Part shown: positions 27,704 to 48,859 of the stretch, in pieces | Layout of the letters: each line of letters starts with the position of its first letter | How positions within the stretch are numbered: the first letter of the stretch is position 1 | NCBI GenBank assembly: GCA_029204225.1 | Contig: CM055100.1 | Location: 6,115,165-6,179,164, forward strand | Reading direction: 5' to 3' | Length of the DNA: 64,000 nucleotides | Source of the DNA: Diphasiastrum complanatum | Lineage: Eukaryota > Streptophyta > Lycopodiopsida > Lycopodiales > Lycopodiaceae | The notes under the pieces: model-generated | Database searches by the model: none | The model's input: only the letters and a program-made list of their open reading frames with translations | What the model was told of the DNA's origin: nothing | Translations under genes and position numbers: made by a program

Positions 27704-28358
27704 TGTGAAAAATACAGATCCTAAGTGGATCTAAACTCCAAGATCATTGGCTTGAATGCTTGCACTCCAAACTACATAAGCTAGGAATTGGCAACACATT
27801 CTATGCTACCTAGAATGCAAAGAACTTGATCAAAAAGCATTTATCACAAATGGAAACTTCCATAAACATCAAGTGCGGCCCAAAATAGCATTATACAGTC
27901 CATAATACATCAGCCTACCACTTTTGGAAAGCACCTAAGATCATACACAATAGCTTGAAGACAATACACACAACAATGCTCTCAATGGAGGAAGAAACAA
28001 TGACAATGATCTATTGATCTCAATGAAGCATACAAAAGGTTTCTCCAACCTGTTCTCCACGACTTCCCTACTATTTATGGATGAGGAAGATGACTCTCTC
28101 TCCTCTCTCTAGAAGGTACTTGACCCTAGATATTCCCTATATAGGAAAAATAGCTAAAAATGGCTTATATGACCAAAATACATCAAAATGGTCTCATTTT
28201 GAAGGGTATGAAGTTTGACACTTCATCATACTGAAAAAATACAGTAAATAAAAACATTGTGGCCTGGTTCACACGTGTGAAACTCCAGAACCAAAACTAT
28301 TTACAATTTTAGCCAATTTAGGCCTCAAACTAGCTAGGAAATGTTGACAATTTTCACA
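27704..28358 (-). repeat. 3' LTR of copia 1
   Basis: 655 bp, identical by eye to 33480-34134. It contains TTCACACGTGTGAA (about 28269-28282). The last codons of the polyprotein overlap its edge. Confidence 0.95.
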
Positions 28359-31300
28359 CTCCCTCTTCAACATTGGATGCTAGTTTCAACATAGTCTTTG
28401 AGCACATTCCAAGATTAGATCTATGCATTAAATATAGGTCCTTTCCCAATGGTTTGGTGAAGATATCAGCCACACACTCCTTTGAAGAGACATGTTGAAG
28501 CTCCACCTCTTTGGCAATGACTTGATCTCTCACAAAATGGTGAGCAATCTCAATGTGCTTGCTCCTTGCATGAAAAACAGGATTGCTTGCCAAGCTTTGG
28601 GCTGAAAGGTTATCACAAAGTATGATTGGAGTCTTCTCTGGTTCCAGCAAGTGAAGATCCAATAACATCCTCTTGATCCAAAGAATCTCCTTGGTGCATG
28701 TTGTTAATGCCTTGTACTCGGCTTCGGTGGAAGATAGAGAGATAGTTGGTTGCTTCTTTGATAGCCATGAGACCACTCCATCTCCAAGATAGATTGCAAA
28801 GGCACTTGTTGACTTCCTATCCATTTGATCACCTGCAAAATCTGAATCTGAAAATCCACAAAGGTTAGGTGTAGTACCTCCATACAAGATGCCAAAATCT
28901 CTAGATCCCGAGATGTATCTAAGTACTCTCTTTCCTAGCTTCCAATGAGCCTCACTAGGATCTTGCATAAATTGACTTAGTTTACCAACCACAAAGCTTA
29001 GATCAGGTCTTGTGATGGTTAACCATATAAGAGATCCTATTAGCTTTCTATAGAGAGTAATGTCCTTGAAGGATCTTTCATTACTTCTTGTAGTTAGCTT
29101 TACATTTGATTCCATAGGAGTAGAAACAACTTTACAATCTTCCATATGAAACCTTTTTAGAATAGAGTTAACATACTTTTCTTGACATATGAATGTAGAT
29201 TTAGAAGTTCTAATAATCTCTATTCCTAAGATATAATGAAGTTTACCAAGATCTTGAATTTCAAACTCTCTTTTGAGTGCCATCTTGATTTCATCTATAT
29301 CTAGATTGTTACCACCACTTAAGATAATGTCATCAACATAGATCAAAAGTAAAGTGATATCATTTTCATTCAATCTAAAGTAGAGAGAATGATCATACTC
29401 ACTCATAACAAAGTTTTGAGAAAGTAAGAAGGAATTGAGCTTAGCATACCAACTCCTTGGTGCTTGCTTTAGCCCATACAAACTCTTTTGGAGATAGCAC
29501 ACATGATTAGGCTCATCATGTGAAACATAGCCCTCGGGTTGCTCCATGTAAATATCTTCTTCAAGATCACCATTCAAGAAGGCATTAGTAACATCCATTT
29601 GCCACATATCCCAATCATAAAGAGTTGCAAGAGAGATTAGGATTCGAATAGTTACCATCTTTGCCACGGGTGCAAAGGTCTCATCATAGTCAATACCATA
29701 TTCTTGAGCATACCCCTTTGCCACCAACCTTGCCTTGTACTTGTTGATTGATCCATCTTGATTTGTCTTGATCTTGAAGATCCACTTACAACCAATTGCC
29801 TTCTTGTCCTTTGGAAGCTTTACCAACCTCCATGTGTTGCTTTTGATGAGTGCTTGATGCTCATGATCCATGGCTTGGATCCATTCCTTCTTTTGAATTG
29901 CTTCACCTACACAAGTTGGTTCATCAAAAGAGGTAAGAAAAGCAAAGTTAGAGTTGTCCACCACTTGCTTTCCTTTTTCATCATAGGTTAGCCTTGATGG
30001 CTTAGCCCTTTGCCTTTGAGTCTTCCTTGAAGTTTGCTTTGGAGTGGCATCTCCATCTTCATCCAAGACATCTTGCACATCATGATGATTAGTAGGCACA
30101 TCAACATCAACATCAACAACATTGAAAACATTCTCTTCATGAAAGATGACATCCCTACTTATGACAACTTTCTTTGTAGAAGGAATGTACACTTTGTAAG
30201 CCTTGCTTACTTCACTATAGCCAACAAACACACCCTTCTTTGATGAAGGATCTTCTTTAGTTCTATCATCAAGTGTGATATTGACAAAACATGTACATCC
30301 AAAGATCCTACAATGCTTGACACTCGGCCTTCTACCATAAAGAACCTCATGAGGAGTTTTACCATCCAAGGAAGCACTTGTCCATCTATTACATAGATAG
30401 TTAGCACATGCTAAAGCTTCCCCCCAAAAAGACTTAGCAAGATTAGCATGTAGTCTCATTGCCTTGGCACATTCACAAAGGGTTCTATTCTTCCTCTCGG
30501 CCACTCCATTCTGTTGTGGAGTCCTAGGACTAGACATCTCCCTCTTAATCCCATGTGCTATACAAAAGTCTTTGAACCTATTTGAGGTGTATTCCCCTCC
30601 ATTATCAGATCTTAAGCATTTGATCTTTGTATTGAATTGGTTTTCCATTTCATTCTTGAACTTGACAAATGCAGCAAACACTTCATCCTTACTTTTAAGA
30701 AGATAGATCCAAGTATACCTACTAAAGTCATCAATGAAAGTTGCATACATCTTTGCACCACCATTGCTAGTTGTACTAGAAGAATGAATATCAGAATGCA
30801 CAAGTTGAAAAGCTTCTTTAGATCTAGAAGTAGATCTAGAATAAGCAAGTCTATGAGATTTGGACAAGGCACAATGTTCACAAACACTATTGTTTGCAAC
30901 AAGACTTTTAGGGAGACCAAGAACAAGCTCTTTCTTTGCCATTACCTCCAAAGATTTGAAGTTGGGATGGCCCAACCTCTTGTGCCAAACTTCTTGGTTT
31001 GTCAATTGCTCCCTAGCCATACATCCTTCATGATTAGAGATCACACATGCATCAAGCTTGAAAAGTTTACCATGCCTCCTACCTTGAGCAATCAAGGATC
31101 CACATTTACTTATCAAACATGCATCTCCAATGAACTCCACATCAAGTCCTTTGTCAATCATTTGACTTACACTAAGCAAATTCTTAGTGATTGAAGGAAT
31201 GTACAAAACATTTTCAAGATTTGCTTTCCTATTTGTTGAAAGGGAAATAGGAATAGTGCCTATGCCTTTGATGTCACATTGACCATCATTTGCAGTGTAG

Positions 31301-32307
31301 ATGATGTTACCTTCTCCCTCATAAGACAATAAGGATGTAAAGTATTCCTTATGTCTTGTCATGTGAGATGAGGCTCCACTATCAATCCACCAAGGATCAT
31401 TATCATCTATGTTGGCTAACAAACTTGAAGTCATAACAAGTGATTCACATGTGTTATGTTCTTCCTCATCTATTGTAAGATTTCCTTGCCTCTCTCCTTG
31501 CTCTCTTTTCTTCTTATAACATTCATTTGCAAAATGACCTTTTATCCCACAATAAAAGCACTCGAACTTTGACTTATTGTTCTTAGTAGAAGAGGAAGAG
31601 GAAGAGTGATCATCATGATCAAAGTTACCACCTTTGGACCATTTCCCTTTGCCTTTACCTTTGCCCTTGAATTTGCCTTTTGTGAAGAAAGCCTCTTCAC
31701 CTCCACCTTGCAAGGATGCACCATCAAGCTTTGATTGCAACCTATGTTCTTCAGCCAATAAGATTTCTTGCAAGTCAACCACACTTGGCAAGACTCTTTG
31801 AATGGCAAAACTTTGCACAAGGTTAGCATGTTCATTTAGCAAACCATTCAACATAACTTGGACTATTTCACCATCTTTTATGTTCTCATCAATGCATGCT
31901 AAATCATCACTTAGGGACTTAACTCTCAAGATAAATGCATGAGCACTTTCACCCTCTCTTTGCCTACTAGAAAATATTTGTCTCCTTAGGGTCAATACCC
32001 TAGATGTGGACTTTGATTCAAAGAGCTTCTTTAAGGCATTCCATGCCTCACTTGCACTTTGACACTTTCCAACTTCCTTGAGAAGTTCATTTGTAACATT
32101 CATTTTAATGATATGAAGAGCCCTTTTGGCCTTCTTATCAAACCTTTGTTGCTCTTGAAGTGTGAGAGGTCTCTCTTCAATTTTTGCAACTATGTCCATG
32201 AGTTCATTCAACTCAAGTAAGGACTCCATCCTCACTTTCCAAGTAGAGTAGTTTGATGAACTCAACCTTTCACTAGACTCTAGCATGATCCCACCATTGG
32301 AAGCCAT
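28354..32307 (-). CDS. gag-pol: Copia 1 Gag-Pol polyprotein, intact, 1317 aa
   Basis: A single frame encodes every copia function in order. Gag capsid occupies residues 1-200, and the CCHC knuckle CFYCGIKGHFANEC lies at 250-263. Protease has WWIDSGASSH (Asp 309). Integrase has HHCC from about 439 to 490, SDIH (first Asp, about 503), LRSDNGGEY (about 565) and [10 protein letters not shown] (Glu, about 600). Reverse transcriptase has YVDD near 990 and LYGLKQAPRSWY before it. RNase H has DSDFAGD (about 1152), STEAEY (about 1196) and CDNLSAQ. All catalytic residues are present. ATG 32307 starts MASNGG, 1.2 kb inside the primer-binding site. The stop at 28354 overlaps the LTR edge. Copia elements with one frame probably set the Gag:Pol ratio post-transcriptionally. 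Confidence 0.97.
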   Translation of the reverse strand: MASNGGIMLESSERLSSSNYSTWKVRMESLLELNELMDIVAKIEERPLTLQEQQRFDKKAKRALHIIKMNVTNELLKEVGKCQSASEAWNALKKLFESKSTSRVLTLRRQIFSSRQREGESAHAFILRVKSLSDDLACIDENIKDGEIVQVMLNGLLNEHANLVQSFAIQRVLPSVVDLQEILLAEEHRLQSKLDGASLQGGGEEAFFTKGKFKGKGKGKGKWSKGGNFDHDDHSSSSSSTKNNKSKFECFYCGIKGHFANECYKKKREQGERQGNLTIDEEEHNTCESLVMTSSLLANIDDNDPWWIDSGASSHMTRHKEYFTSLLSYEGEGNIIYTANDGQCDIKGIGTIPISLSTNRKANLENVLYIPSITKNLLSVSQMIDKGLDVEFIGDACLISKCGSLIAQGRRHGKLFKLDACVISNHEGCMAREQLTNQEVWHKRLGHPNFKSLEVMAKKELVLGLPKSLVANNSVCEHCALSKSHRLAYSRSTSRSKEAFQLVHSDIHSSSTTSNGGAKMYATFIDDFSRYTWIYLLKSKDEVFAAFVKFKNEMENQFNTKIKCLRSDNGGEYTSNRFKDFCIAHGIKREMSSPRTPQQNGVAERKNRTLCECAKAMRLHANLAKSFWGEALACANYLCNRWTSASLDGKTPHEVLYGRRPSVKHCRIFGCTCFVNITLDDRTKEDPSSKKGVFVGYSEVSKAYKVYIPSTKKVVISRDVIFHEENVFNVVDVDVDVPTNHHDVQDVLDEDGDATPKQTSRKTQRQRAKPSRLTYDEKGKQVVDNSNFAFLTSFDEPTCVGEAIQKKEWIQAMDHEHQALIKSNTWRLVKLPKDKKAIGCKWIFKIKTNQDGSINKYKARLVAKGYAQEYGIDYDETFAPVAKMVTIRILISLATLYDWDMWQMDVTNAFLNGDLEEDIYMEQPEGYVSHDEPNHVCYLQKSLYGLKQAPRSWYAKLNSFLLSQNFVMSEYDHSLYFRLNENDITLLLIYVDDIILSGGNNLDIDEIKMALKREFEIQDLGKLHYILGIEIIRTSKSTFICQEKYVNSILKRFHMEDCKVVSTPMESNVKLTTRSNERSFKDITLYRKLIGSLIWLTITRPDLSFVVGKLSQFMQDPSEAHWKLGKRVLRYISGSRDFGILYGGTTPNLCGFSDSDFAGDQMDRKSTSAFAIYLGDGVVSWLSKKQPTISLSSTEAEYKALTTCTKEILWIKRMLLDLHLLEPEKTPIILCDNLSAQSLASNPVFHARSKHIEIAHHFVRDQVIAKEVELQHVSSKECVADIFTKPLGKDLYLMHRSNLGMCSKTMLKLASNVEEGV
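28359..28367 (-). promoter_or_regulatory. Polypurine tract of copia 1
   Basis: On the element strand this reads AAGAGGGAG directly before the 3' LTR. It primes plus-strand DNA synthesis. Confidence 0.85.
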
Positions 32308-33467
32308 GATTCTAATGTTTCTTCAACTTTTAGGTTTTGTCCTAAAGCACTTAGCACTCACTTTTCTCTCAACAAATGATAGATAAAGAGATCTATGAAG
32401 ATTTAGGACCCTAAAACACTTCTATCTTGAACCTAGATGGTTTCCAAGCATAGAAAGGAAGATTGAAACACATGCAACACTTTGCACACACTAAGAATGG
32501 ATTACAAAATCAAACCAACCTGAACACACTCTTGCTTAAGCTCTCAAACTTTCCAGCAAGTGACCAAATCAAGTTATGGTGTGAAGAGTTACTTGCATTC
32601 TTAGAAAATACCCAAAACTAGGATGCCAAGATTACCTAGTAATGAACAAACTTGATCAACATATGATCAACACACTAAGATATTGATTCAACCTGTAAAA
32701 CCACATGTAAACCACACTTCTAAAAGTTTATAAACTCCAGCAAGTGATAAATACAAGATTTAGAGGTGAATGAATGAGCACACTTAGTGAATCACAAGAC
32801 TAGCTTCACTATCTTGTCAAATCTTGGTGTTTAGATGTAGATCTAAGATCACTTCACATGAGAATGTTCCTCAACCTGTTAAGAACCTGAAAACACACTT
32901 GCATAATGGTTAACGCCTTCCAGCAAATGCTCCAATCAAATTACATAAGGAGAGTTACTTACATGCTCAACAAAGTACACCAAAATTTATGCCAAAATTG
33001 ATGACAATCTTTACAATATGCTCTTCACAATGGAGCTTACAATATGTTCACCCAAAAAAGGGGATCTTTCATCCAAATGGGAGCTTTGCTCAGCCTTTAG
33101 GAGAATTACAACTCACTCAAAAGAGCATTTGTCATCCACTTAAGGAGAAGTTTCATCCACTTAAGGAGAGTGTTCATCCAAGAATGGAGATTGTCAACAA
33201 TAGGATTGAAAAGAACATTGTTAGTATTGAATATGCACAAGCCTCACAATCACAAATGATTAGGTGTTATGATCTGATCCAAAATAGTTTCTTTTCAGCC
33301 TCTGATCTTCAATAGACCTGAAATATGCTTTTGATCCACAAGTTCAACTCACAAAACAAAGGTTAGTAAGATTTGATCAACAAAGCAATGCAAAATCATG
33401 CTAGAACTTGATCAAACATCCAAATATCACCAAAAATGGAATACTTACTGTAAATAGAAGCCAACCA

Positions 33468-34588: not shown

Positions 34589-34749
34589 TTGAAGACCGTA
34601 TGTGAGACGTCTATCTCTACATTTTTATATAATAAAATATACGATAAGTTTTTGCTAATTTCTTGCTTAAGAACATTGGCCATAATCAATATTATTACTG
34701 TTAGAGTGATAACTAGGTTAAACTATCTAGAAATAGGTAGATACTTAGT

Positions 34750-37181
34750 TACATGGATATGCAATGGGCATAGTGGATTACTAGGATATTGTGAAAGATT
34801 GCAGAACCATGGAAAACAACTTTATATGAATGAAGTTCACTTTTTAGAAGGTGAGTTAATTCGGATATCCTCTTATTGTCAGAATAGAGATTGTCATCTC
34901 CAAAAGATGTTAGAAGAAAATGAACAACTTAAAAAAAATAATGAATCATTACAGAAGATAACAATCAATAACAAATCAAAACTAGAGCAAATGCAATTAG
35001 TCTTTCAGTCTATTCGTATTGAAAACTTACAATTATTGAAGGATGTGGATTTGGCAAAGAAAAAGGCTGAAAGTAAGAAGCGAAAGCAACAAAGTTGCAA
35101 GGATATTCAAACGCTTTCAAAAGGAGGTTATCAAAATAGAAGGATCCGTGCATTCAAGTAAGCATATTCTGATTTTTGTAAGCTTTCAATGATATTTGGA
35201 TTTAATTTCAGCTATGGTGATATTCTGTTAACTATCTGTTTTTTTTGCAGATCTGCATTAGTAGCTCCTCAGAATATTAAAGACAATGCTTCACTAGAAA
35301 TGTCATTGGACACAATATTGACTTGCAAATCCACTGAGCGTATCATGATGAACATTAGGATTTCAAATGTAAAGTGTAAAATGGCAGAGTCTTTGATGGT
35401 GGACATTCAAAAAAATTTAGATAAGACTATAGTTCGGGGTGCTTGTGATTTTGCAGGTATTAGCAGGGAAGCATATGCAACAATATTTAAACTAATTAGA
35501 GAAGCTTTTAAGAAAGTTCAAATTAGAAAAGTCCCAATCCCTAGGACATATCACTTGAAAAAAGAGAGGGATACATTAAACATAGGTATGCATAAGATCA
35601 CTGGAACTCCATTTCATATTGAGGAGGTGTATGAAACTCATGGAAGATCGATATTCTATAATTCATCAAACAACTTATTTGTTGATCTAAATTACTTGCT
35701 GAGATACATCGTCACATTCTATAATATAACCTATGAAAAGGTGAATGGCAAAATAATCATAGTACTTAAGTTAGATGAGTCAGAAATTGTGAAAGGGCAG
35801 AAGATGGAGAGAGTTAGTATAACTCTCATGAATGGTGCTCTATCACAAACAGAGAACCAAGAAGATTTCAGATTCAGTGTCCAGTCAAAAAATGATATAT
35901 GGTGGTTGGCAGCGTTTCAGGTAACTAGCCTCATTATTACATTACATTCATTGAATAGTATTAATTCATTGTAAACTAAGTCTGATTAATTCTTTGGACA
36001 GGTGCTGAAGGAGGATCATGATATATTATCATATATATTCTCAAGGACATCTTATCCTAGGATCATCAAGAACCATATGGATGCAGGACTTCTCAATGTT
36101 CTAGGAGTTGGAGACTTCAATGTTGACTGGCACTTGGCAGGTGATTTAAAAACATTGAAATGTATGTATAACGTCTCTCACAGTGCTACATCAAAACACC
36201 CTTGTTTGAACTGCATGAAAATGGCAAAAGATGTAACTAGGAGTACAAGAATTACTAGAAAATATGCAGATCCAAATTAGAAGCCTGTGCTGCCTATCCC
36301 CTTAAAAAATGTGCATGTTTGCACTCTTCATGCAAAAGTTAGATAATAGAAAAGATCATTTATCTTCATATAGTTTTTGCTTGGAATACTAAGCCAACAT
36401 CATTAGCAAAGGAAGCTATCTCTCGATTAGAAGATGTTTGATCAAAAGCAGGACTCCATAAGGGACATGTCAAAATTCAAAAAGATGAAAAGCTTTCAGG
36501 AAAGAATGGGAACATGCCAACTAAGCCAAGCATAGGAGGAGAAAAAGCACGTCGTTTCCTATCAAATCATACTGGTAAGGCTTCTAATATTCAACACTCA
36601 GTCTGGATCGATATTATTGCTACCACTCAAGACTTCGAGAAAGACGGCAAAACCAGAGTACTAAAAGTTGATGTATGGAAGAAGCTTGATAGTATGATTG
36701 TTATTTTAAAAAAAGAAAAATACTCTGATATTGATAACAAAGCTGTCCAAAGGACTTGTGTCGAGTTTGTTAATGCAGTATCAAAAGCATGGGGAGAAGA
36801 TCACATCACTCATTACATGATTAGTATAAAATTTTCAAGATGCTTTCAATTTTTCATATATATTTAGATCCAAACATAAGACTAACATTATGATTTTGAC
36901 ATATGCAGCACATACTAAGAGATCATACAACATTTTTTGCAAACACATATGGAAGCTTGAGTGTATGGTCACCACAAGGGATGGAGAAGTCACATTGGCA
37001 AGCACGAGCAACATTTCATCGAAATACACAACATGGAAGAACCAATGAAAAACGAAACTACATCTGTCAATGGTTTCAATGGTTCTACCGCAGAGTTCAG
37101 ATTCGACATATAACAAAGTCCACACAATACAACAAGTTTAGAAAAGCATGCAAGTTCATACAGGAAGAGAAAACTAGATGA
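34750..37181 (+). pseudogene. Transposase-like gene with coiled coil, several exons
   Basis: The exons are: up to 35157 (coiled coil, LEENEQLKKNNESLQK and basic AESKKRKQQ); 35251-35920; 36002 to 36819 (with a frameshift near 36340); and 36909-37181. The first two junctions have good GT-AG sites and matching phase; the third has lost its GT (ATTAGT). Key blocks are LDESEIVKGQKMERVSITLM (about 35779), WHLAGDLKT followed by HPCLNCMK (about 36130-36220), and SVWSPQGMEKSHWQAR (about 36959). An Asp, a GD-L/W-K Asp and a QG-x-EK Glu in this order resemble a DDE transposase family known as repetitive proteins in animals, oomycetes and fungi. That family link is from memory. In-frame stops (for example TGA near 36439) suggest decay. 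The family is uncertain. Confidence 0.6.
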
Positions 37182-37372
37182 TTGTTGAGTAGAAGATCAT
37201 CATTGTCATCAAATCATGACATGTTCAAAATTGCTTTGCAAATTCATTGAACAAGAGAGGAGAAATACTCAATGTAAATGTATTGATTGTATTATAACAA
37301 AATACAAAGTGTCAACTATTCATCATTAGATCGTGTGTCAGATTCTATGGCAGTATTGTCATGAAGAAATTT

Positions 37373-38830
37373 TCAGCTAGCGTATGCATCTAATAGATGT
37401 GCATTATCCTTATTTTCACTAAGCTCAATATAAGTGGAATACAATGAATAATGAGAGCTCCTTAAAGGAACATTCCCATCAGTAAAACCTAAAATGTTCA
37501 AAACATAACATTTTTTGACAAAAATGATCTTATTTGTCTTAACAAATTTATGTCCTCCTAGGTAAAATGATAAAGCTTTAACTGCCATTATAAGACTCTC
37601 CCCAACTGGGCTCAGCTTGGAATGAGCAATACAGATCTCATTCTTCAAGAAATGCCTAAGATAGTGGCCAAGTCCACTATCCTTCTGAAAAGAGGATGCG
37701 TGTTGTCTGAAACCATCTCGTCTCGCAGCAAAATCATCAATTATGAGAGCATCCTGCAATAGGAAATATGTTAGCAAAAACACATTTAGTGATTAAAAAT
37801 ATTGTAATGCAAGAAAGTTTAAACACTTACACATTCTTCATCATCATCAGCAACTAGATCAGGATGATCCATATAATGACCACGTACTGAAGTGGAATCA
37901 TCAGCGAAATGCATTAATGATGGACGAGGGAAGCCCATCTAGGATTGAAATGTCGTGAATTCTTCATCGGATGGTCTGTCTCGCCCATCCTCAGCAATAT
38001 TTGATAAAGCTTTAGTCAGACATTCTTCACCGGTCCTAAGTCCCTCCTCATCATCAAAATCAATACCAGCAACAAGGTCATCTGTTTTGAGATCTACAAA
38101 GTCGGGGAATTCAAAAATTGTGCCGGATAATAAAGATAGAACCTCATCTTCACGATAGTCAAAAAATCTACATAAATCAACAGTAATATATAGGCAAATT
38201 GAAAAGACATTTAGACTCCTCTATCGGGATCGATTCATCAACAGATGTATTTTGGCCGATAAAAGAATCCCGGAGAACATCAGTATTTACATCAATAAAG
38301 TCACTTTCCTTATCAGGAGTGTCGATAAGGAAGTGACTGATATCCTTAATAGCTGACTGAACAGAGGATGATGCAAAAGAAGGGTTAGCAACAGATACTT
38401 CCTCATCATCTGGAATCTGAACGAAAAGAAAAAGTATGAAACCACTCTGATATTCTACCAATCGACATTTCTTGTTGCAATAAGGACACATTGAACTACT
38501 TTTGAAAAGATCAAACAATTTGGTGAACATTCTATCTAGTCTATGTCTGAAAGCTGGAAAGAAATGAACAAGATCAGTATAATGCATGTACTAGAGTGAA
38601 CCTATGTAAAAAATAGGCTTACTAAGTATATCTCTGAATCTAACATAATGTTCATAAAATGCATCAGAATTTGGTTGTGCAGTCTTGAAAACATGTAGAT
38701 ATAGCCTGAATAGACTGTGGAAGTAGTCTAGATTTTCAGTAATCCCAAATTCACTAAGAAATGAACTCAAACCTGAATCCCGTGAGAATTCTGAGGAAGA
38801 GGCCATGGAAATAATGTAGCGCGCGCACAA
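37373..38830 (-). pseudogene. Acidic protein gene of the island, multi-exon, not recognised
   Basis: Minus-strand exons are 38830/38806-38623, 38553 to about 38180, 38167-37831 and 37753-37373. Strong sites are GTAAGC at 38622, TTTCCAG at 38554, GTAAGTG at 37830 and TTGCAG at 37754. The intron around 38170 is very short and uncertain. ATG 38806 (MASSSEF) or 38830 could start it. Visible parts are a Phe/Tyr-rich helical start, MCPYCNKKC (a CxxC pair), a long Asp/Glu-rich middle (AGIDFDDEEGL, VADDDEEC) and a hydrophobic C-terminal region. One in-frame TAG lies near 37940 (TGG if one base is changed). It diverges from the histone-fold gene and converges on the transposase-like gene. Function unknown. 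Confidence 0.5.
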
Positions 38831-38892
38831 GACTGATATGCCACGAATTTTGAGAACAAAAAAAGTAAAAAATTAATTGGGTTTCGTGCCCT

Positions 38893-39185
38893 TTATACTA
38901 AATTTTTGCACGTGTGGTCAACGGTCAAAGGACACGTGTCTACTTTCAATTGAACTACAGGAACTGGCACGTGTGAGGTAACACCTGGACACGTGTGAAA
39001 TGACAACTGTACACATGTCTCATGTTCATTCATTTATTCGACAACACATGTCGCTCGAGCATTCGTTCGTACAAATTCCACATGTGTAAAGTGACATGGT
39101 GACACGTGTTGCTCTCGCATTGGACCTTACAAGTTCCACGCGTGTGACAGGACGTTCTTTCGCACGTGCGAACCACGATATAAAA
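38893..39185. promoter_or_regulatory. Bidirectional promoter with a CACGTG array
   Basis: Six exact CACGTG palindromes (38909, 38933, 38968, 38990, 39103, 39163), three CACATG (39012, 39045, 39079) and one CACGCG (39137) lie between two divergent genes. TATA boxes face outward: complement TATAAAG at 38893-38899 for the minus gene and TATAAAA at 39179-39185 for the plus gene. CACGTG is the G-box bound by plant bHLH and bZIP factors. Ten such sites in 260 bp is far beyond chance. They could instead be binding sites for an element-encoded protein, like the subterminal repeats of plant DNA transposons. Confidence 0.75.
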
Positions 39186-39498
39186 TCACAAGCTTCGATG
39201 AATTTTTTTCACTTTTTTTTTTTGCTTCGCATATCCCACCTATGTGCATCCTTCACAATCGATATTCTTCCTAACGCCTTCCATGGGCACAGGTCCGATA
39301 CATCTGCCTACATGTCTCCTTGTATCGCACTTGTGCACCTATCTTCAATACTAATCTATCTCTCTTGTAATAAGCTCGCACAGGTCTGATATACCGTACA
39401 TTTTGTTCGTACATATTGGTCTTCTGTGAGTGCTTTATCATCTTTCCCTGCTCATCCTAGCCATCACGCACAAGTCCGCTCTCCCATAGTACAGGTCC
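39186..39498 (+). other. Probable 5' untranslated region of the histone-fold/protease gene
   Basis: This is the stretch between the TATA box and the first ATG in the histone frame. It shows no domain and could hold an unseen leader exon or intron. Confidence 0.35.
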
Positions 39499-41402
39499 AT
39501 GGATAGGAGAAAGTAGACAAGGAGGGACTTCTTCTCTGTTGGCTCGTCCTCAGCTTCTGCGGTTGGCATTACACCTCCTGCCAGACCTAGAACGTGCAAC
39601 CGCAGCAGGTGGCTCTCTAAGATACGTAAGTATCAGAGATCCACCGCTCTGTTGATTCCAAGAGCTCCATTCTACCGTGCTGTAAAAACATAACTAGAAA
39701 TGATCTCGGATAGTTGGTTAGATTCACACCCAGTGCTCTGCAGTGCCTTCAAGAGGCTGCTGAAGATTACATAAGCCTATTTTTTGAAGATTTATTTTTG
39801 CTGGCAATCCATTCCAAGAGAGTCACCATAATGCCCAAGGATTTTCAGCTCCTGATGAGAATGAGGGAGAGGTTTTGCAAATTGCACGTATCTCAGTCTG
39901 CTGCTCCCAGACCAACTCCTCTAGATAGGACTGATCTTCCTACCAAGAGACCTAGGAAGCAGGCAGCACCCAAGAGAGCTCCGAAGAAAGTAAGGAGGGT
40001 AGACACCAGAGAAACCCTAAACCCTAACCCGGAATCAATTGTAGATAACGCTGCTCTTGATACTGTTGTAAATATAGCTACATCTATTTTGGATATCCCT
40101 TCAATCCTTGTAGATACTACACCACCTCCTCTTCCTCCCTCAAATCTTTATACATATATAGATTCTGATGACTATCTTAAATTTGAGAAGGACATATCTG
40201 ATGCTATAGATACAATTGGTACTCCTTTTTGTTTTAGACTAGATGAACTTGATTTTAGTATAAATTATAGAGTTCTTGATTGTTTGGATCTCAAAGACAG
40301 ACGGGCTTCTATCAGCGATCCTGTGATAGAGTCCGGGCTTACACTCTTGCAATATGACATTGCAAGAGATTCATCCAATGAGTTTCTGGTGCTGAGTAAT
40401 TTTTTGGTTCAGGCCTTCAAGGAAAATAATGACACATTGTCACAGTGTCTGACTAGTGGATTCACACCAGCAACAAAATATCTGCTCATCCCTTATCATA
40501 CCAAGTAAGATATATTAAATGCTTTTTGCTATTTTATGCATTAACATTGGCATTGTCAATGGAAATAGTTTTCAGAATGGAAGCTAAAAAAATTTCAATC
40601 TTATTTTGCAGTGACCCCTAGAGTTTAAATGTGATTTCTATTAAGAGATCTGTAGATAATAGTATTAAAGGTTTTTGTGTCAAGATGAATTCGGCGAGCA
40701 ATACTCATAAGGATGTAGATATTTACCTTCCATATTGAAGTAAATATATTCCTACAGATGTTCTCCATTTAGTGGACTGGCAAATCGTCAGTTTGGAGGT
40801 AAATTCTGTCTTTCTTAATAGCATTTTGAAATCAGTATTCTAATGTATTTGTTTCATTCTAATTCATTCTGTTTCATAATTGATTTCTTGTGTGCTAAAT
40901 TTTTTTGCAGTCACCCTAGCAAAATAATTCATTCAGTTGTGGGTGTTACACATTATACAATGCCAAGTTATTTTTTGAGTGGTTCAACCTTCAGGAAGAT
41001 GTTGATATTTCTAAGGTAATAAATTATGTTTATTCTTATTTTGGAATTATGATTAGTTTTTTATTTTGTTGATGTTTTTAGCCATTACTAATAGATGAAT
41101 GTTCTATCTTGCAGTTTACACTTCCTGAGTACACATCAAGCCAGGTGTACAGATTTAGACAAGAAATTATACTGAGTATACTGGCTAGGGCAAGGCTTCA
41201 GCCTCCCGTTATTGATGAATTCATAGATAAATATACATTGATATATCAAATAATGCTCCATTTTATGAATTTAGGAACACAAAATACATGTACCGATGCC
41301 CAGCTTGGCTTCCATTTATTGAATGAAAGAGTGTATACACAGAATTTTATTAAAGTTTATTTGAAACTATTATTCTCCCACAATGGTGATTGTTGTAGGT
41401 AG
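39499..41402 (+). pseudogene. Histone H3/CENH3-like fold fused to a Ulp1/SENP-like protease
   Basis: Exons are 39499-40504, 40612-40798, 40911-41015 and 41115-41402. All three introns are GT-AG and in phase. The histone part has SKIRKYQRSTALLIPRAPF (39619-39675). After a stop at 39691 and a frameshift near 39715 come [13 protein letters not shown] and [16 protein letters not shown], very close to the H3 alpha-2/L2/alpha-3 region. LLIP and EAAEDY are CENH3-like. A basic, H3-tail-like linker ([14 protein letters not shown]) follows. The protease part has [25 protein letters not shown] (stop at an expected Trp), MNSAS and QNNSFSCGCYTLY. This is a C48 layout with the nucleophile Cys kept, while the His and Asp positions look changed. 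In-frame stops are at 39514, 39691, about 40619, 40736 and 40917. It is probably decayed here. Inferred role: SUMO protease tethered to chromatin. Confidence 0.7.
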
Positions 41403-41540
41403 ATCTTTGCAGCATGTTATCAACTCCTGTCTTTTTCGCATCTGTGACATGACAAATATTAGTAAATGTGCAATTGTAAATGATGACATTTTCTATTTAT
41501 TTGTTCTATTTTGAAATGGCAATAAACATAAAGTACTTAC

Positions 41541-42793
41541 GAGTCTTTCGTTGATGATAAATCTGAAATATGTTGGTAGATTGGTTTGTAATAGCATGAT
41601 CAATGTTCTAATAAAATCAAGCTTCCAATGCTCTTCCACCTCAACCATAGTCAAATATTCCTCATTGTAGATAATGGTTATCTCCATTCGGTTTTTGTGA
41701 CCATTTAGTTCAAAGTCTTGATCCAGTGGTAGCCATGTACCTTCAATTTTCTTGTATCTTTAGTAGTTAAATGTGAGACTGAGCATTTGCTTTTCGATAT
41801 GATAATGAAAGATCATTGAGGACTTTTTAATCCTACATTCTATGTCATTATTTGTTTTACTATCCCAGCCTTGATCCATGAGATCTGACAAAGTCTCATC
41901 TGATAAATCCTTGCAAACAAATAAAGTTGGTGTCCTACAAACATTAGCACTCGAGAAAAAATCAACAAATATATGTAATGAGATAAACCAACTTAGGTGA
42001 ACAATTTTTGAGCCTGTGCTTATCTTCATAGCATTTCTAATATCAATGAGTAGCTTGCATCTCAAGGATTCAGAAAAATTGCTATCAGGAGTAGGCCACT
42101 CATCACTTTGAAAACTAGGCAATGGAATTGCTTCGAGCTTGCCAAAACCTCCATCTGTTTGTGGCGTATATAAAGATTCATAAAAACAGATACCGCATTC
42201 TGCAAGTTCCTTTGGACTTCTTCCTCTGTATTGCAGCTTTTCAACATCAGAGTGAATGGCGTCTAATATTCTTGCAAGTGATTGTGCGGGCTCCCATTCA
42301 CTTATGCATGATGAATATAAATCTGAAAGAAAAAAACAATGTTGAAGCATTTAAGTCATAATCTGAAGAGCATCAATAAAGAAAATCACCTATGATTGTT
42401 GTAGAGTGCATATGTTTTGATATACTTACAATTACATTTTTGATGATCATGAGGATTGATATCATGTACTTTGATTTCTGAATGCATATATACATGTTGT
42501 ACTAAGACTTCTGATATCGATTGACCTCCCGGGGTAGTCTTAAACTCCAAAATTTTTGCTTTCCAATAAGATTTGTAAGTCATTTTTGCTCTTTTCTTTT
42601 GTCAAAAATTGCCCTTTGATGATGGATGCAGCAATACCCATGAATTCTTCATATATTTTGTTGGCTTCCAGTTATCAGCTTCATCTTTCTCATTGTAAAT
42701 GATCACAGACTCGATTGTACATCTAGGTCTCCTTCCCATTGCTATTTTCAAAGCTTGGGCGCCAAAACTCTCTGATATGATACTTAATTTCAA
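41541..42793 (-). pseudogene. Island gene 4, possible BAH-like domain
   Basis: Minus-strand exon 1 runs 42793-42430 (donor GTAAGT) and exon 2 runs 42322-41541 (acceptor TTTCAG, donor GTAAGTAC). A later exon is implied but not found. Exon 1 has NSWVLLHPSSKGNF, an in-frame TGA at about 42600, then YKSYWKAKILEFKTTPGG and VLVQHVYMHSE. The join gives NYLYSSCISEWEPAQSL. This order (hydrophobic start, YWKAKI, V-V-x-Y, YxSS-W-PAxSL) resembles a bromo-adjacent homology domain, which reads chromatin marks. The likeness is weak. A second stop at 41760 precedes KIEGTWLPLDQDFEL. The gene converges on the histone-fold/protease gene. Confidence 0.4.
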
Positions 42794-43160
42794 TTTTTCG
42801 TATCATATTTAATCTAATGTGAATGCCAACATAGTCACAGTTACTACGTATACCATATTTTATGTAACTGTACATACTGTATTTCTATAACTGTAACTAG
42901 TATAGTTAGAACATTTCATTATACTAACCAGCATAGTCAAGTAAATTTAACTTGAGGTATTGACGTCGGGCAGATTAGCACGTGTCGGGCAGGAAGAAGA
43001 AACCAATGGGATATGTCCATGCTGACTGGACACAAATTTCAAAGTTTTCTATATGGCATTTTTATTTCTCAGTTAATCTGAATTATGTTACATAGATTTC
43101 AAATCTGTCCATTTTGATTGGGCCTAGTGACGGTCGAAACTAAAGACAAAAAATAAAAGT
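42794..43160. other. Right flank of the four-gene island
   Basis: AT-rich DNA with one GCACGTGTC motif near 42978, perhaps the promoter of island gene 4. I could not find a terminal inverted repeat or a target duplication that marks the edge of the island. Confidence 0.4.
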
Positions 43161-43164
43161 ATCT

Positions 43165-43540
43165 TCACAAAGGGTCTTTTTGATATTGAGAACTCCTCTA
43201 ATGTGTATGTTTGACTACCGGTGAGAAAGTATCAGTGTAGTCGATCCTATATTTCTGTGAAAAACCTTTTGCAACCAACCTTGCTTTGTATCTGATATTT
43301 TCTCCATCAGGGCCTGTTTTGATCTTGTAGACCCACTTGCATTTGACTGGTTTTCTTCCATCAGGTATAGGTGCAAGTGTCCATACATTGTTCTTATGCA
43401 TGGAGGACATTTCATCCTCCATTGCTTGAATCCAGCGATCTTGATCTGGTCCATCAATAGCTTTCTGGAATGTTTGAGGTTCGTCTGAGAAACCACAGAA
43501 TGGCTATATTCGTTGAAACATCCTGACCAAACCTTACAGG
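43165..43540 (-). pseudogene. Copia reverse transcriptase N-terminal fragment
   Basis: The minus-strand translation holds MEDEMSSMHKNNVWTLAPIP, VKCKWVYKIKTGPDG, YKARLVAKGFSQ and DTFSPVVKHT, the conserved start of a copia RT. The frame shifts at both ends, and the YVDD region is absent. Confidence 0.85.
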
Positions 43541-43663: not shown

Positions 43664-44316
43664 TGTGAAAAACTCAGATCCAAAAGATGCTAAAGTTTCA
43701 TAAAGATCTTGGCCATGGAAGTTATGCACATCTAGATTGAAAAAATGATAGAAATTGTGATGTTAAGCATACTAAACATCAACTAAACATCAAGATCTGA
43801 TCATAAGCTTCCACAAACAGAAACTTGCTGTCCCTGTCCGTACTTCAGAGCCTACAACCTGCATTTCACACGTGTGAAGCCATAGCAACAAAGAAATCAC
43901 AATTCTAGTGGCTAGAATGCAAGATATGAACAAAAAAGTGAGAGAGAAGAAGATGGATCTTCAAAGAGCATAACATTCATTCAATAGAATGAAAATGAGA
44001 TGTGTACATACTCGTGGAGATGGCTATTTATAGCAGCCATAGTGCCTCTTGGCCACTTGTCTTATGATAGGCTAAAATTGGGGTCCAATAGGATTCACCC
44101 ATCTACCTAGAAATTTGGTCAAATAGGAATGCACCAAATTATGAGCCAATAGAAGAGCTCCACACTCGACCTCCTCTAATTAATGTGACCTCAAAAGTAG
44201 TGTACACATACTTTGGGCCTCTACATACATGTATGAACCTATCTCTAACTTTTATTTGGCCATAGGCCTACAAAATCTCAAGTTAGGAAAATACTACTAG
44301 TTGACAATTTTTCACA
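43664..44316 (-). repeat. 3' LTR of copia 2
   Basis: 653 bp, identical by eye to 48872-49524. It contains TTTCACACGTGTGAA near 43865. Confidence 0.95.
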
Positions 44317-47300
44317 CTCCCTCTTCAACTAGTTTTAGCATAGATTTAGAAAGTACACCAAGACTTGTTCTATGCTTGAAAAATAAGTCCTTTCCCAATG
44401 CTTTGGTAAAGATATCAGCCACACATTCCTTTGATGGGACATGTTCAAGCTTGATCTCTTTTGCCAACACTTGTTCTCTCACAAAATGGTAAGCCACCTC
44501 GATATGTTTGCTCCTTGCATGGAAAACCGGATTGCTTGCTAGACTTTGGGCTGAAAGGTTGTCACAAAAGATGATTGGACTCTCTGAAAAATCCAGCAAG
44601 TGAAGCTCCATAATCATCCTCTTGATCCACACCATCTCCTTTGTGCATGATGTCAAAGCTTTGTACTCGGCCTCACTAGAAGAAAGTGATATAGTTGCTT
44701 GTTTCTTCGACATCCATGAGATAGCTCCATCACCTATGAAAATAGCATGTGCATTTATGGATTTTCTATCCATAAGATCTCCTGCAAAATCTGAATCTGA
44801 AAAACCAAATAAGTTAGGTGATGATCCTCTATAAACAATGCCAAAATCTTTTGTTCCCGAGATGTATCTCAAGATCCTCTTTCCTAGTTTCCAATGTTCT
44901 ATGCTAGGATCTTGCATGAATTGGCTTAATCTACCAACACAATAAGATAAATCAGGTCTTGTGATGGTTAGATATATAAGAGAACCTATTAGCTTCCTAT
45001 AGAGAGTAATGTCCTCGAAGGATCTTTCATTACCTCTTATAGTTAGCTTTACATGTGATTCCATAGGTGTATCAATAGGATTTGCATCTACCATATGAAA
45101 TCTATTGAGAATAGAAATAGCATACTTCTCTTGTGAAATAAAAGTGATTTGAGAAGTTCTAATTACTTCTATTCCTAAGATATAGCTCAAAAGACCAAGA
45201 TCATGCACTTCAAATTCTTTTTTTAGTGCTTTCTTGATATCTTCTATATCTTCCTTGTTCCCTCCACTTAAAATAATGTCATCCACATAAATTAGAAGGA
45301 TTGTAACATCATTAGCACTAATTCTAAAGTAAAGTGAATGATCATACTCACTCATAGTGAAGTTTTGAGAAAGTAGAAAAGAGTTAAGCCTAGCATACCA
45401 ACTCCTTGGTGCTTGCTTAAGACCATACAAACTTTTTTGTAGAAAACACACATGATTAGGCTTGCTATGAGAAACATAGCTCTCGGGTTGCTCCATGTAG
45501 ACTTCCTCTTCAAGATCACCATTCAAGAAAGCATTAGAAATGTCTAATTGCCAAAGATCCCATCCATAAAGAGTTGCAAGGGAAATGATTACTCTTATGC
45601 TCACCATCTTTGCCACGGGTGCAAAGGTTTCCTCATAGTCAATGCCATGCTCTTGAGCATAACCTTTAGCCACCAACCTTGCCTTCAACTTGTTGATAGA
45701 TCCATCTTGATTTGTCTTTACCTTGAAGATCCATTTGCATCCAATTGCACTTTTGCCCTTTGGAAGCTCCACCAATCTCCATGTGTTGTTCTTCATAAGT
45801 GCTTCAAACTCAAGATCCATTGCTTGGATCCATTCCTCTTTTTGCCTTGCTTCATCTACACATGAAGGTACATCAAAAGAAGTTAGGAAAGCATAGTTGG
45901 ATCCATCCACCACTTGCTTACCTTTGCCATCATAAGTGAGCCTTGAGGGTTTCACTTTATGCCTTGGAGTTCTCCTTGGAATTTGACTTGAAGAGGCTTC
46001 TTCAACATCCACATCCAATGTGTCATCAACTCCATTGTCATCAAGCACATTAGTTGCAACAACACCATCATCACTTGAAACAACTTTTGGAATGTTACTT
46101 TCATCAAAAATGACATCCCTACTTGTGAACACTTTCTTGATTGAAGGAACATAAATCCTATATGCTTTGCTTACTTCACTATAACCAACAAAAATGCCCT
46201 TTCTTGAAGATGGATCCTCCTTAGTTCTATCATCAAGAGTAATGTTGAAGTAGCAAATGCATCCAAAAGTTCTTAGAAACTTGACATTAGGCTTCATACC
46301 AAACAAAGCTTCAAAAGGGGTTTTTCCTTCCAATACAACACTTGGCCATCTATTGCAAAGGAAATTTGCACACAACAAAGCATCACTCCAAAAAGGTTTA
46401 GGAAGATTAGCATTCAATCTCATTGCCTTTGCACTCTCACACAAGGTTCTATTCTTCCTCTCGGCCACTCCATTTTGTTGTGGTGTTCTTGGACATGTGT
46501 ACTCCCTCTTGATCCCATGCTCATCGCAAAAGGCTTTGAATTTGTTAGAAATGTATTCACCACCATTGTCGCTCCTCAAGCATTTGATTTTGGTTGTAAA
46601 TTGAGTCTCAATAGCAACTTTGAACTTGACAAACACATCAAACACCTCATCCTTGCTCTTTAGTAGATAAACCCAACAAAATCTACTAAAATCATCAATG
46701 AAAGTTACATACATCTTAGCACCTCCATTGCTAATTGTAGTAACACCATGAATATCCGAATGCAAGAGAGAAAAAGGCATCTTAGATCTAGATATAGATC
46801 TAGTATATGGCAATCTATGTGATTTAGACAAAGCACATTCTTCACAAACATGATTCAAGCAAGTAAGAGACTTGGGAAGTCCCCTTACTACCTCCTTTTT
46901 GGCTATTACCTCCAAGGCCTTGTAGTTGAGATGTCCCATCCTTTTATGCCATACCTCTTGAATTGACATTTGTTCATTTGCCATGCATCCAACTTGGTTA
47001 GCAACAACACATGCATCAAGCTTGAACAATTTCCCTTGCCTTTTCCCTTTTGCAATGATACTACACCCCTTTTTGATCAAGCAAGCATCACCATCAAACT
47101 CAACTTTGAATCCTTTGTCAAGCATTTGGCTTACACTAAGTAAGTTCTTGGTAATGGATGGAATGAGCAAAACATCTTTCAATTCTATATTCCTATTTGT
47201 AGAAAGTGAAATAGGAATTGTGCCAATCCCCTTGATTGTACACTCACCATCATTTGCGGTATAGATTACCTTCCTATCACCATCAAATGCCATTAAAGAT

Positions 47301-48262
47301 GAAAAATACTCTTTATGATATGTCATATGAGAAGTGGCTCCACTATCAATCCACCAAGGATCAATGTCTCCATGATTAGCCAACAAGCAAGATGACATAA
47401 CAAAAGCATCATTTGAAAGAAGCTCATCCCCACCCTCATCAATAGTTAGATTGGTTTGCTTTTCCCCTTGATCCCTCTTTTTCTTGAAACAATCACTAGC
47501 AAAATGCCCTTTGACTCCACAATAGAAACATTTTAGCTTAGATCTATCCTTCTTTTTGCCAAAAGTAGAGTGCTCACCTTGGTCTTGCCCTTTAGACCAA
47601 TTGCTTTTACCTTTGCCCTTGAACTTGCCTTTAGAGAACATTGCCTCCTCTTCTCCTCCTTGAGATGTAGAAGATGCTCCCACTCTTGCTTGCAACCTGA
47701 ATTCTTCAGCCAACAAGACCTCTTGCAAGTCTCCAACACTTGGTAAACATTTTTGGATAGCATAACTTTGAACAAGATTAGCATGATCATCCAACAAGCC
47801 ATTGAGAATCACTTGAACAAGCTCCTCATTATTTATGCCATCATTAATGCATGCTAACTCATCATTCAATGCTTTAACTCTCAAAACAAAAGCATGTCCA
47901 CTCTCACTCTTCTTTTGCATACAAGAAAAGATTTGCCTTCTTAAAGTCAACACTCTAGAAGTAGACTTGGATTCATAAACCTTCTTCAAGGCTTCCCAAG
48001 CTTCACTAGATGATGTGCACTTACCAACCTCTTTGATAAGCTCATTTGTCACATTCATCTTGATCATGTGAAGGGCTTTCTTTGCCCTCTTGTCATACCT
48101 CAATTGTTCTTGAGGTGCCAAAGGTCTCTCCTCCACACCTACAACAATATCCATCAACTCATTCATCTCAAGCAAAGACTCCATCCTTACTTTCCAAGTA
48201 GAATAGTTGAGGGAGGTAAGCCTATCATTGCTTTCCAACATGTAGCCTCCATTTGTAGCCAT
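44312..48262 (-). CDS. gag-pol: Copia 2 Gag-Pol polyprotein, intact, 1316 aa
   Basis: It is one open frame from ATG 48262 (MATNGG) to a stop overlapping the 3' LTR edge. Gag has the CCHC knuckle CFYCGVKGHFASDC at 245-258. Protease has WWIDSGATSH. Integrase has HKRMGH...CEECALSK, HSDIH, LRSDNGGEY and [12 protein letters not shown] has LYGLKQAPRSWY and LLIYVDDIILSG. RNase H has DSDFAGD, SSSEAEY, CDNLSAQ and HARSKHIE. No catalytic residue is missing. It is a clear relative of copia 1 throughout, but their LTRs differ, so they are sister families rather than copies of one element. Confidence 0.97.
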   Translation of the reverse strand: MATNGGYMLESNDRLTSLNYSTWKVRMESLLEMNELMDIVVGVEERPLAPQEQLRYDKRAKKALHMIKMNVTNELIKEVGKCTSSSEAWEALKKVYESKSTSRVLTLRRQIFSCMQKKSESGHAFVLRVKALNDELACINDGINNEELVQVILNGLLDDHANLVQSYAIQKCLPSVGDLQEVLLAEEFRLQARVGASSTSQGGEEEAMFSKGKFKGKGKSNWSKGQDQGEHSTFGKKKDRSKLKCFYCGVKGHFASDCFKKKRDQGEKQTNLTIDEGGDELLSNDAFVMSSCLLANHGDIDPWWIDSGATSHMTYHKEYFSSLMAFDGDRKVIYTANDGECTIKGIGTIPISLSTNRNIELKDVLLIPSITKNLLSVSQMLDKGFKVEFDGDACLIKKGCSIIAKGKRQGKLFKLDACVVANQVGCMANEQMSIQEVWHKRMGHLNYKALEVIAKKEVVRGLPKSLTCLNHVCEECALSKSHRLPYTRSISRSKMPFSLLHSDIHGVTTISNGGAKMYVTFIDDFSRFCWVYLLKSKDEVFDVFVKFKVAIETQFTTKIKCLRSDNGGEYISNKFKAFCDEHGIKREYTCPRTPQQNGVAERKNRTLCESAKAMRLNANLPKPFWSDALLCANFLCNRWPSVVLEGKTPFEALFGMKPNVKFLRTFGCICYFNITLDDRTKEDPSSRKGIFVGYSEVSKAYRIYVPSIKKVFTSRDVIFDESNIPKVVSSDDGVVATNVLDDNGVDDTLDVDVEEASSSQIPRRTPRHKVKPSRLTYDGKGKQVVDGSNYAFLTSFDVPSCVDEARQKEEWIQAMDLEFEALMKNNTWRLVELPKGKSAIGCKWIFKVKTNQDGSINKLKARLVAKGYAQEHGIDYEETFAPVAKMVSIRVIISLATLYGWDLWQLDISNAFLNGDLEEEVYMEQPESYVSHSKPNHVCFLQKSLYGLKQAPRSWYARLNSFLLSQNFTMSEYDHSLYFRISANDVTILLIYVDDIILSGGNKEDIEDIKKALKKEFEVHDLGLLSYILGIEVIRTSQITFISQEKYAISILNRFHMVDANPIDTPMESHVKLTIRGNERSFEDITLYRKLIGSLIYLTITRPDLSYCVGRLSQFMQDPSIEHWKLGKRILRYISGTKDFGIVYRGSSPNLFGFSDSDFAGDLMDRKSINAHAIFIGDGAISWMSKKQATISLSSSEAEYKALTSCTKEMVWIKRMIMELHLLDFSESPIIFCDNLSAQSLASNPVFHARSKHIEVAYHFVREQVLAKEIKLEHVPSKECVADIFTKALGKDLFFKHRTSLGVLSKSMLKLVEEGV
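44317..44325 (-). promoter_or_regulatory. Polypurine tract of copia 2
   Basis: The element strand reads AAGAGGGAG beside the 3' LTR, the same tract as in copia 1. Confidence 0.85.
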
Positions 48263-48859
48263 GTTGCAATGATTGATCTCTGATCTTTGACCTGTTCCAA
48301 TGCACTAAGCACTCTCTTGAATCAACAAATGAAACACAAGAAGAAATCACAAAGATTTGGAACCTAAAACCTTACTTTTTCTCTCTTTTCCTCACTTTTT
48401 CCTCAATTTTAGCCACTAGTTTTATGATTTCTTGATCAAACCAAGACCAAACCTCAATATACTTGCTTTTCCCTCACTCCTAAGATTGAAATACACTCTT
48501 GAATCATTCAGCAAACTGAAAATCAGAGGGTTACATCAATTTTGAAGTTTTTGACATGAAGAAGCAAGAAATTGAATCAAAAAACTATATGCTAGAATGG
48601 AAAACTAATAGGATCTTGTTGGATCTTGCATCTCCCTCTTTCCAAAACAATTTTTGTCTCCTTATTCTGATAAGTATAGAGGGAATTCGCCCTACTTCAA
48701 TTGAAATGCATACAAATGATGTTTTGATCACAAAGATCCAATTTCTACACATAAATCAACAAGATTTTTAGCTAGAAACTTGATTGGAATGCTACAAAAG
48801 CAAACTCGCCCACAAATCTCTTCTAAATCTGGCAAAACCTGCACATTTGGCCGCCTAAT

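Follow-up and report, generated by a model that had tools for sequence, protein, structure and literature searches.

The closest described systems come from plants and fungi. The VANC proteins of Arabidopsis VANDAL elements bind tandem repeats located in noncoding sequence of their own family and cause silent marks to be lost (PMC10398659). Ulp1 is present in some VANCs, called KIU (PMC13317346). Ulp1 has also been described in CACTA elements of grapevine and, by database search, of rice (PMC2528002). EnSpm/CACTA and Transib/RAG1 transposases have C(2)C and H(3-4)H motifs in common (PMC12730594). In fungi, captured histone H3 copies were inactivated by RIP in Pseudocercospora, and many potentially active copies are present in Pyrenophora (PMC6710886). 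Ulp1 in plant elements, anti-silencing transposon genes and fungal H3 capture are already known; to these the present locus adds a histone-Ulp1 fusion. Titles and abstract openings of open-licence papers were searched and gave no gene with a histone-protease layout, in agreement with the sequence-only reading from which this analysis started. Nor did these titles and abstract openings show a histone that a transposon encodes in fusion with an enzyme and that selection maintains in a high-copy family.

The fusion was analysed in a window, i.e. the whole stretch of 64,000 nucleotides from Diphasiastrum complanatum. The features of the carrier element in window coordinates, with the evidence for each, are as follows.

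34745..37190, plus strand: transposase gene remnant, exons at about 34745-35157, 35251-35922, 36003-36820 and 36904-37181, with stops and frameshifts (homologs P0009-P0042).
37373..38818, minus strand: gene M1, no assigned function, divergent partner of the histone-Ulp1 gene (ORFs).
38880..39498, no strand: noncoding region between the divergent genes, CpG-rich, with ACACGTGT-like palindromes (motif and CpG counts).
39499..39875, plus strand: histone H3-like part, a tail (MDRRK-stop-TRRD..) followed by alphaN and the histone fold (Pfam Histone, PDB match to H3); two stops and one frameshift here, open in sibling L020.
39876..40136, plus strand: linker, basic then proline-rich (KRPRKQ..PKRAPKK), with the weakest constraint in exon 1, dN/dS 0.59 (sibling comparison).
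40137..41402, plus strand: Ulp1 (C48)-like domain in four exons (introns, Pfam, siblings); interrupted here by three stops and shortened by a deletion near 41216 at its 3′ end.
41493..42802, minus strand: gene M2, no assigned function, convergent with the histone-Ulp1 gene (ORFs).
43169..43203, no strand: right terminal inverted repeat (TIR), 35 bp (sibling ends; 1,687 genome matches against 0 for the control).

An H3-type fold had been read in the first part of the window gene, and the profile search bore this out. Pfam Histone (PF00125) matched two window ORFs (39714-40505 at 5.9e-12 and 39517-39693 at 1.3e-6), and reached 1e-24 when both were read through with X at the stops. By PDB sequence match, the solved structures nearest to the read-through part were canonical H3 chains (2.9e-22), and none of the 60 listed among 176 matching PDB sequences was CENP-A by name. 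Ulp1-like blocks had been placed downstream, across three phase-correct introns. The three introns (40505-40611, 40799-40910 and 41016-41114) are all GT..AG and preserve the frame, and several sibling copies retain all of them. Peptidase_C48 (PF02902) is marginal in the window copy: exon 3 alone gave 0.03, pieces of the domain gave 14.6-21.0 bits, and two joined versions of it gave 19.0 and 21.0 bits, for a cut-off of 20.7 bits. In sibling L020, which is open for 470 aa, both profiles match (Histone at 1e-27, profile positions 27-122 of 122; Peptidase_C48 at 1.1e-10, 42.2 against 20.7 bits), which places the second part in the Ulp1/C48 family. The Histone match runs over the fold in L020, and for the window read-through H3 is the best of the solved chains.

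The window copy is a pseudogene from a large family and is no working gene itself. Five in-frame stops interrupt it: two TAG codons, one following MDRRK and one at 39711-39713, a pair of stops in exon 2 and a single one in exon 3. The frame also shifts once near 39684-39711, and about 80 bp are deleted in the 3′ part near 41216/41217. Since the normal stop codon is lost with this deletion, the one at 41402 does not mark the regular end of the gene.

Sibling copies were searched for in the genome assembly (1.74 Gb, 5,176 contigs) with the window's ORF of 264 aa, which extends over the histone and Ulp1 parts. Scoring was limited to the best of 8,660 first-look candidates, i.e. 145 matches including the window's own (144 further copies), some of which resemble assembly duplicates. 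Every one of the 145 had an E-value of 3.2e-135 or better and took in the beginning of the Ulp1 piece together with all or some of the histone piece. By hand count, 45 of the 145 are free of stops over the 264-aa query stretch. The contig of the window contains, at a distance of about 700 kb (G000:C9:5456888-5457679), a copy with 100% identity to the window ORF (rounded; its score is slightly lower), which suggests either that the assembly is duplicated here or that a segmental duplication took place recently. Twenty sibling loci (L009-L028) were then fetched, all from matches without a stop in exon 1, so that this sample is biased towards open copies. A search of the same genome for intact copies had been proposed, and in five of the 20 loci (L015, L018, L020, L023 and L026) the frame stays open from the Met across the Ulp1 exons, every intron being GT..AG. 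Among these, the catalytic Cys is replaced by Phe in L018, and the frame of L015 continues beyond the common C-terminal stop. The remaining 15 have stops, frame or splice changes, or deletions.

Two adjacent genes, one for a histone and one for Ulp1, might be neighbours by chance and be misread as one, and the stops and frameshift of the window copy, seen by itself, could give such an impression. In 13 of the 16 aligned copies, a single open frame begins at the histone Met, continues across the linker and enters the first Ulp1 exon (one or two stops in the other three), and both pieces are covered in all 145 scored matches. At the DNA level the two-gene reading is already refuted, and its probability is close to nil. 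The single gene joining an H3-type fold to Ulp1 (C48) that had been proposed is therefore retained.

The carrier of this gene is a high-copy DNA transposon of about 9.3 kb, bounded by TIRs and containing four genes; the complete element at L019 measures about 9.27 kb. The 35-bp inverted repeat CATTAGAGGAGTTCTCAATATCAAAAAGACCCTTT was found at both ends of L019 and L020 and, with one mismatch, of L026. It also bounds L046-L048, three loci that were picked via repeat pairs and not via the histone. Genome-wide, with at most one mismatch, the repeat has 828 + 859 = 1,687 matches and the reversed control has 0. A DNA transposon had been suspected as the carrier of the Ulp1-bearing gene, and these repeats substantiate it. 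Histone-Ulp1 sequence is present in all three loci picked by TIR pairs and is broken by stops or frameshifts in all three. L043, an internally deleted element, retains a piece of the gene. In the fetched sibling loci, the transposase is covered to at least 78% in 10 of 20, M1 to at least 90% in 13 and M2 to at least 79% in 14, some of the losses coming from the 10-kb limit of the fetched stretches. No significant Pfam family was found for M1 or M2; by eye, M1 has an acidic look and a CPYCNKKC stretch.

In the window, homology to the siblings spans 34745 to 43203. No left TIR was found within the window at up to seven mismatches, and the left end of the element is missing upstream of 34745. Two other candidates for the element ends, an inverted repeat of 26 nt (33584-33609/43597-43622) and the TTCACACGTGTGAAA palindromes, were rejected because the sibling copies end at 43203. 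The right end abuts a copia-like reverse-transcriptase fragment, recognized by eye at 43204-43503, so a copia element was probably its insertion target. Long open frames for two copia-like polyproteins, also recognized by eye, are located at 28354-32322 and 44312-48304 (1,322 and 1,330 aa). These ORFs are extremely depleted in CpG (observed/expected ratio, o/e, of 0.06 and 0.09); the genes of the histone element have 0.31-0.46. Further away, an ORF at 11737-12291 contains a zf-C17orf113 zinc finger (PF25431, 3.6e-19) and is probably part of another transposon gene.

The class of the element was approached through its transposase and its ends. No significant Pfam family was obtained for the transposase, and when the window pieces and four homologs were matched to Pfam with E values of up to 1, no MULE family came up. 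The absence of a mudrA-type transposase from these match lists points away from a MULE without excluding one. The predicted fold of the homolog P0010 matches RAG1 and Transib, and on this structure model the transposase is assigned to the RAG1-type DDE fold as RAG1/Transib-like. With such a predicted fold, the carrier does not look like the Kaonashi-type MULE that the sequence-only reading had cited as an example. A fern fragment, P0043 (Adiantum), is among the relatives of the transposase, and no relative was found in viral contigs. Target site duplications (TSDs) were looked for in seven TIR pairs (L019, L020, L026 and four further pairs, the fourth of which is 11.8 kb apart and was not fetched whole) and showed no consistent length. 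The hallmark of Transib is a 5-bp target duplication; none was seen by eye in the seven pairs, where recombined copies could mask one. Unlike the RAG1/RAG2 and Transib systems, the element has no recognized RAG2-like gene, its other genes being histone-Ulp1, M1 and M2. CACTA/EnSpm elements are recognized by CACTA ends and a 3-bp TSD. Here the ends start with CATTAG, and a 3-bp match was found in one of the seven pairs, so these hallmarks do not place the element in CACTA/EnSpm. The element resembles CACTA-ULP of grapevine and rice in that an Ulp1 domain is located inside a cut-and-paste element, EnSpm/CACTA in that case; it differs from it by these ends and TSDs and by its histone part, of which the available passages on CACTA-ULP make no mention (PMC2528002).

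The histone part was compared with canonical H3 and with CENH3. The tail of the protein reads MDRRKQTRRDFF. In the 16 aligned copies, K4 is kept in 15 and K9 in none, with D in its place in 14 copies and N in two, and the S10 position is F. R2, K4, T6 and R8 are kept in nearly all 16 copies and Q5 in 12, the K27/K36 region is replaced and the rest of the H3 tail is lost. By the K4, K9, K27 and K36 set, this is not a canonical H3 tail. The C-terminal stretch of the histone part is almost that of H3, and the alignment shows one extra residue in loop 1 relative to canonical H3. The L020 core shares 57% identity with canonical plant H3, 50% with Arabidopsis CENH3 and 47% with human CENP-A, the last two values being provisional. 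A tree of the core with H3 and CENH3 gave no clear placement.

Candidate relatives outside this family were checked in the same way. P0049 (391 aa, from a contig of 3,375 bases) was considered as the same fusion in a second species and rejected: its histone part is similar, but the rest has no significant relation to Ulp1. Local and end-free global alignments of its downstream part were equalled by 798 and 1,455 of 2,000 shuffles, respectively, and an HMM of the first Ulp1 part gave about 0 bits on P0049, below shuffled decoys. P0049 is a divergent H3-like protein with the tail MARTKQTMRK, the stretch LLIPRAPF and a long C-terminal extension, in which short Ulp1-like stretches are seen by eye only. 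P0044, P0045 and P0046 were likewise rejected as relatives of the full protein. They match solely through canonical H3 (tandem H3, or H3 joined to another gene), and no Ulp1 was seen in them.

On gene M2, the N-terminal part (window 42386-42802, minus strand; L026:8529-8921) resembles residues 723-774 of human CENP-C (KKRAK..YWKAKI for TKRTR..YWRGER) at E 0.44, which is not significant. The AlphaFold model of this part has a pLDDT of 30. Beside an H3-like gene, the resemblance is a lead worth testing.

These comparisons bear on insertion targeting. The H3-like fold might put the transposition machinery in nucleosomes or in centromeric chromatin, with the Ulp1 part serving as a remodelling or SUMO-binding module, so that insertions do little harm. 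The nearly intact H3-type C-terminal stretch and the longer loop 1 would fit, as would the plant CENH3-like details LLIP, EAAEDY and the DF after MPK, and the weak resemblance of M2 to CENP-C. The core is nonetheless nearer to canonical H3 than to CENH3 (provisional value), with no clear placement in the tree; the CENP-C match is not significant; and, judged by contig, the genome matches are spread over many. We consider insertion targeting distinctly unlikely.

Selection was estimated by dN/dS on 16 of the 20 fetched copies; L010, L012, L014 and L016 were dropped, their histone frame being missing or broken. The histone core gave 0.16 (0.11-0.26) and the first Ulp1 part 0.28 (0.19-0.43); values were higher in the tail, at 0.43 (0.21-0.82), and in the linker, at 0.59 (0.40-0.92). 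The later Ulp1 exons gave 0.28 (0.18-0.41) in the 10 copies with whole exons 2 and 3. For the other genes of the element the range was 0.40-0.52 over 6-10 copies (M1, 0.40 in 10 copies; the two parts of M2, 0.44 in 10 copies and 0.52 in seven). As copies were chosen for an open exon 1, the histone-Ulp1 values are biased downwards relative to those of the transposase, M1 and M2; the contrast between core and linker is unaffected. Between copies L009-L028, introns diverge by 0.065-0.103, less than synonymous sites (0.18-0.31). CpG decay in the exons is our guess for this difference, and transversions were counted apart because of it. Transversions alone gave 0.24 for the core, 0.35 for the tail, 0.37 for the first Ulp1 part and 0.43 for the linker, and transitions gave 0.22, 0.56, 0.37 and 0.78 in the same order. 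Constraint on the histone core is firm. That on the Ulp1 part, relative to the linker, is weaker than the core's and less sure, since its transversion value is near those of the tail and linker and its bootstrap range touches the linker's.

These values can be set against the view that the histone is a passenger, i.e. that a host H3 gene was transduplicated by chance beside an Ulp1 fragment and multiplied with the element without being of any use. Such capture has a fungal precedent: a hAT element captured and multiplied H3, and its copies were inactivated by RIP in Pseudocercospora (PMC6710886). In the same report and in the parts available, H3 sequence was raised to high copy by a DNA transposon in Pseudocercospora and its relatives and in Pyrenophora, as here, but it was housekeeping H3 with no Ulp1 fusion mentioned, whereas the present H3 is diverged and fused to Ulp1. 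Captured sequences most commonly end in pseudogenization or loss (PMC13317346), and many copies of the present gene are dead, including the window's and the three picked by TIR pairs. The difference between core and linker within the same exon is opposed to this view. So is the identity of the core to plant H3 (57%), when the histone cores of four other copies are 84-89% identical to that of L020; the histone therefore evolved as a protein long before the present amplification. A useless passenger would hardly show such constraint in its core, and we regard this view as very improbable.

For the Ulp1 part, the catalytic residues were examined in 10 copies. The His (in HW) is present in all 10 and the Cys in eight, the other two having Phe. 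In the HMMER alignment, the position of the catalytic Asp is occupied by K and not by an acidic residue; an N some residues further on is an alternative reading of this position. With K at the Asp position and Phe at the Cys in two of 10 copies, the protease may be weak or dead, and its activity is uncertain. No DNA-binding domain was recognized in the fusion protein.

The protein might also act off chromatin, as a soluble decoy or SUMO regulator. Its histone fold would then capture H4, chaperones or K4 readers, and the Ulp1 part would stabilize the transposase or relieve SUMO-dependent repression. The retention of the H3 tail residues listed above, when the remaining tail is lost, would agree with this, as would the equal dN/dS of the later Ulp1 exons and the first Ulp1 part. 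Many H3K4 readers, however, require a free A1, which is absent here because Asp follows the Met, and the very low dN/dS of the histone core suggests several partners. A soluble role is in our estimation unlikely.

The noncoding region upstream of the gene was analysed for motifs and CpG content. The ACACGTGT-like array (38880-39500) contains 12 overlapping CACRTGT/ACAYGTG matches, for a mean of 0.12 and a maximum of two in mononucleotide shuffles, and was found in all seven copies examined. In 12 of 12 copies examined, taken from the 20 fetched loci, the CpG o/e of the region was 1.06-1.57 (mean 1.32; 1.30 with the motif masked); it was 1.1 in the window copy. Elsewhere, tiles over the rest of L026 gave 0.05-0.78 and the window mean was 0.33. 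Only six of 634 window tiles exceed 1, four of them in this region. The stretch 38880..39498 is probably a bidirectional promoter and a regulatory target. Such a CpG-rich region in a CpG-depleted genome suggests that it was spared germ-line methylation or is held by selection; selection on the motifs or binding of host G-box factors could also be the cause.

The window feature is a degraded copy of a transposon gene encoding an H3-like-Ulp1 protein, and at about even chances we favour the reading of that protein as an anti-silencing factor comparable to VANC/KIU. The preserved histone half suggests that the element uses its own H3 to escape host silencing, and a fusion that brings a deSUMOylase to nucleosomes is plausible. 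In the proposed mechanism, the histone fold, paired with host H4, would be built into nucleosomes at the element, or would bind H3/H4 chaperones there. Nucleosomes without K9 would be unable to receive H3K9 methylation, and the Ulp1 domain would strip SUMO off silencing or other chromatin proteins bound at the element. The promoter of the element would then stay active and unmethylated, which would account for the undecayed CpGs. Several results speak against an anti-silencing role: the residues at the Asp and Cys positions of Ulp1, the broken gene in all three elements chosen by TIR pairs, the less sure constraint on the first Ulp1 part, the lack of a recognized DNA-binding domain in the fusion, the rejection of P0049 as the full fusion in a second species, and the other possible causes of CpG richness.

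The anti-silencing reading was compared with the known systems. The VANC/KIU (Kaonashi) genes of Arabidopsis VANDAL MULEs also stand beside a transposase gene, and KIU has Ulp1 (PMC13317346). VANCs act on motif repeats in the noncoding parts of their own family (PMC10398659), and a motif array with CpG retention is seen here. On the other side, their transposase is of the MULE type and the present one is RAG1/Transib-like, and no histone fold is mentioned in the accessible parts of those two reports. Anti-silencing has been reported for VANC, whereas for the histone-Ulp1 element we infer it. Fungal KDZ, EnSpm and other elements with TET/JBP are likewise DNA transposons with a gene acting on epigenetic marks; that gene is a dioxygenase acting on 5mC, and not a histone with a SUMO-protease-like domain as here (PMC12730594).

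A more specific form of the anti-silencing reading would be a counterfeit nucleosome. The element would encode an H3 variant that cannot be methylated at K9, tether it to a deSUMOylase and load it on its own CpG-rich promoter, possibly with M2 recognizing that histone. This form is speculative, and we think it rather unlikely as a whole. If it were true, the element would represent a class of transposon that evades silencing through replacement of the histone itself. Were the protein to enter chromatin, it could be regarded as nature's version of the H3 mutants that lack lysines. In that case, a transposon with a RAG1/Transib fold would also be linked to histone biology, and it would become testable whether a genomic parasite can escape silencing by supplying its own part of the nucleosome.
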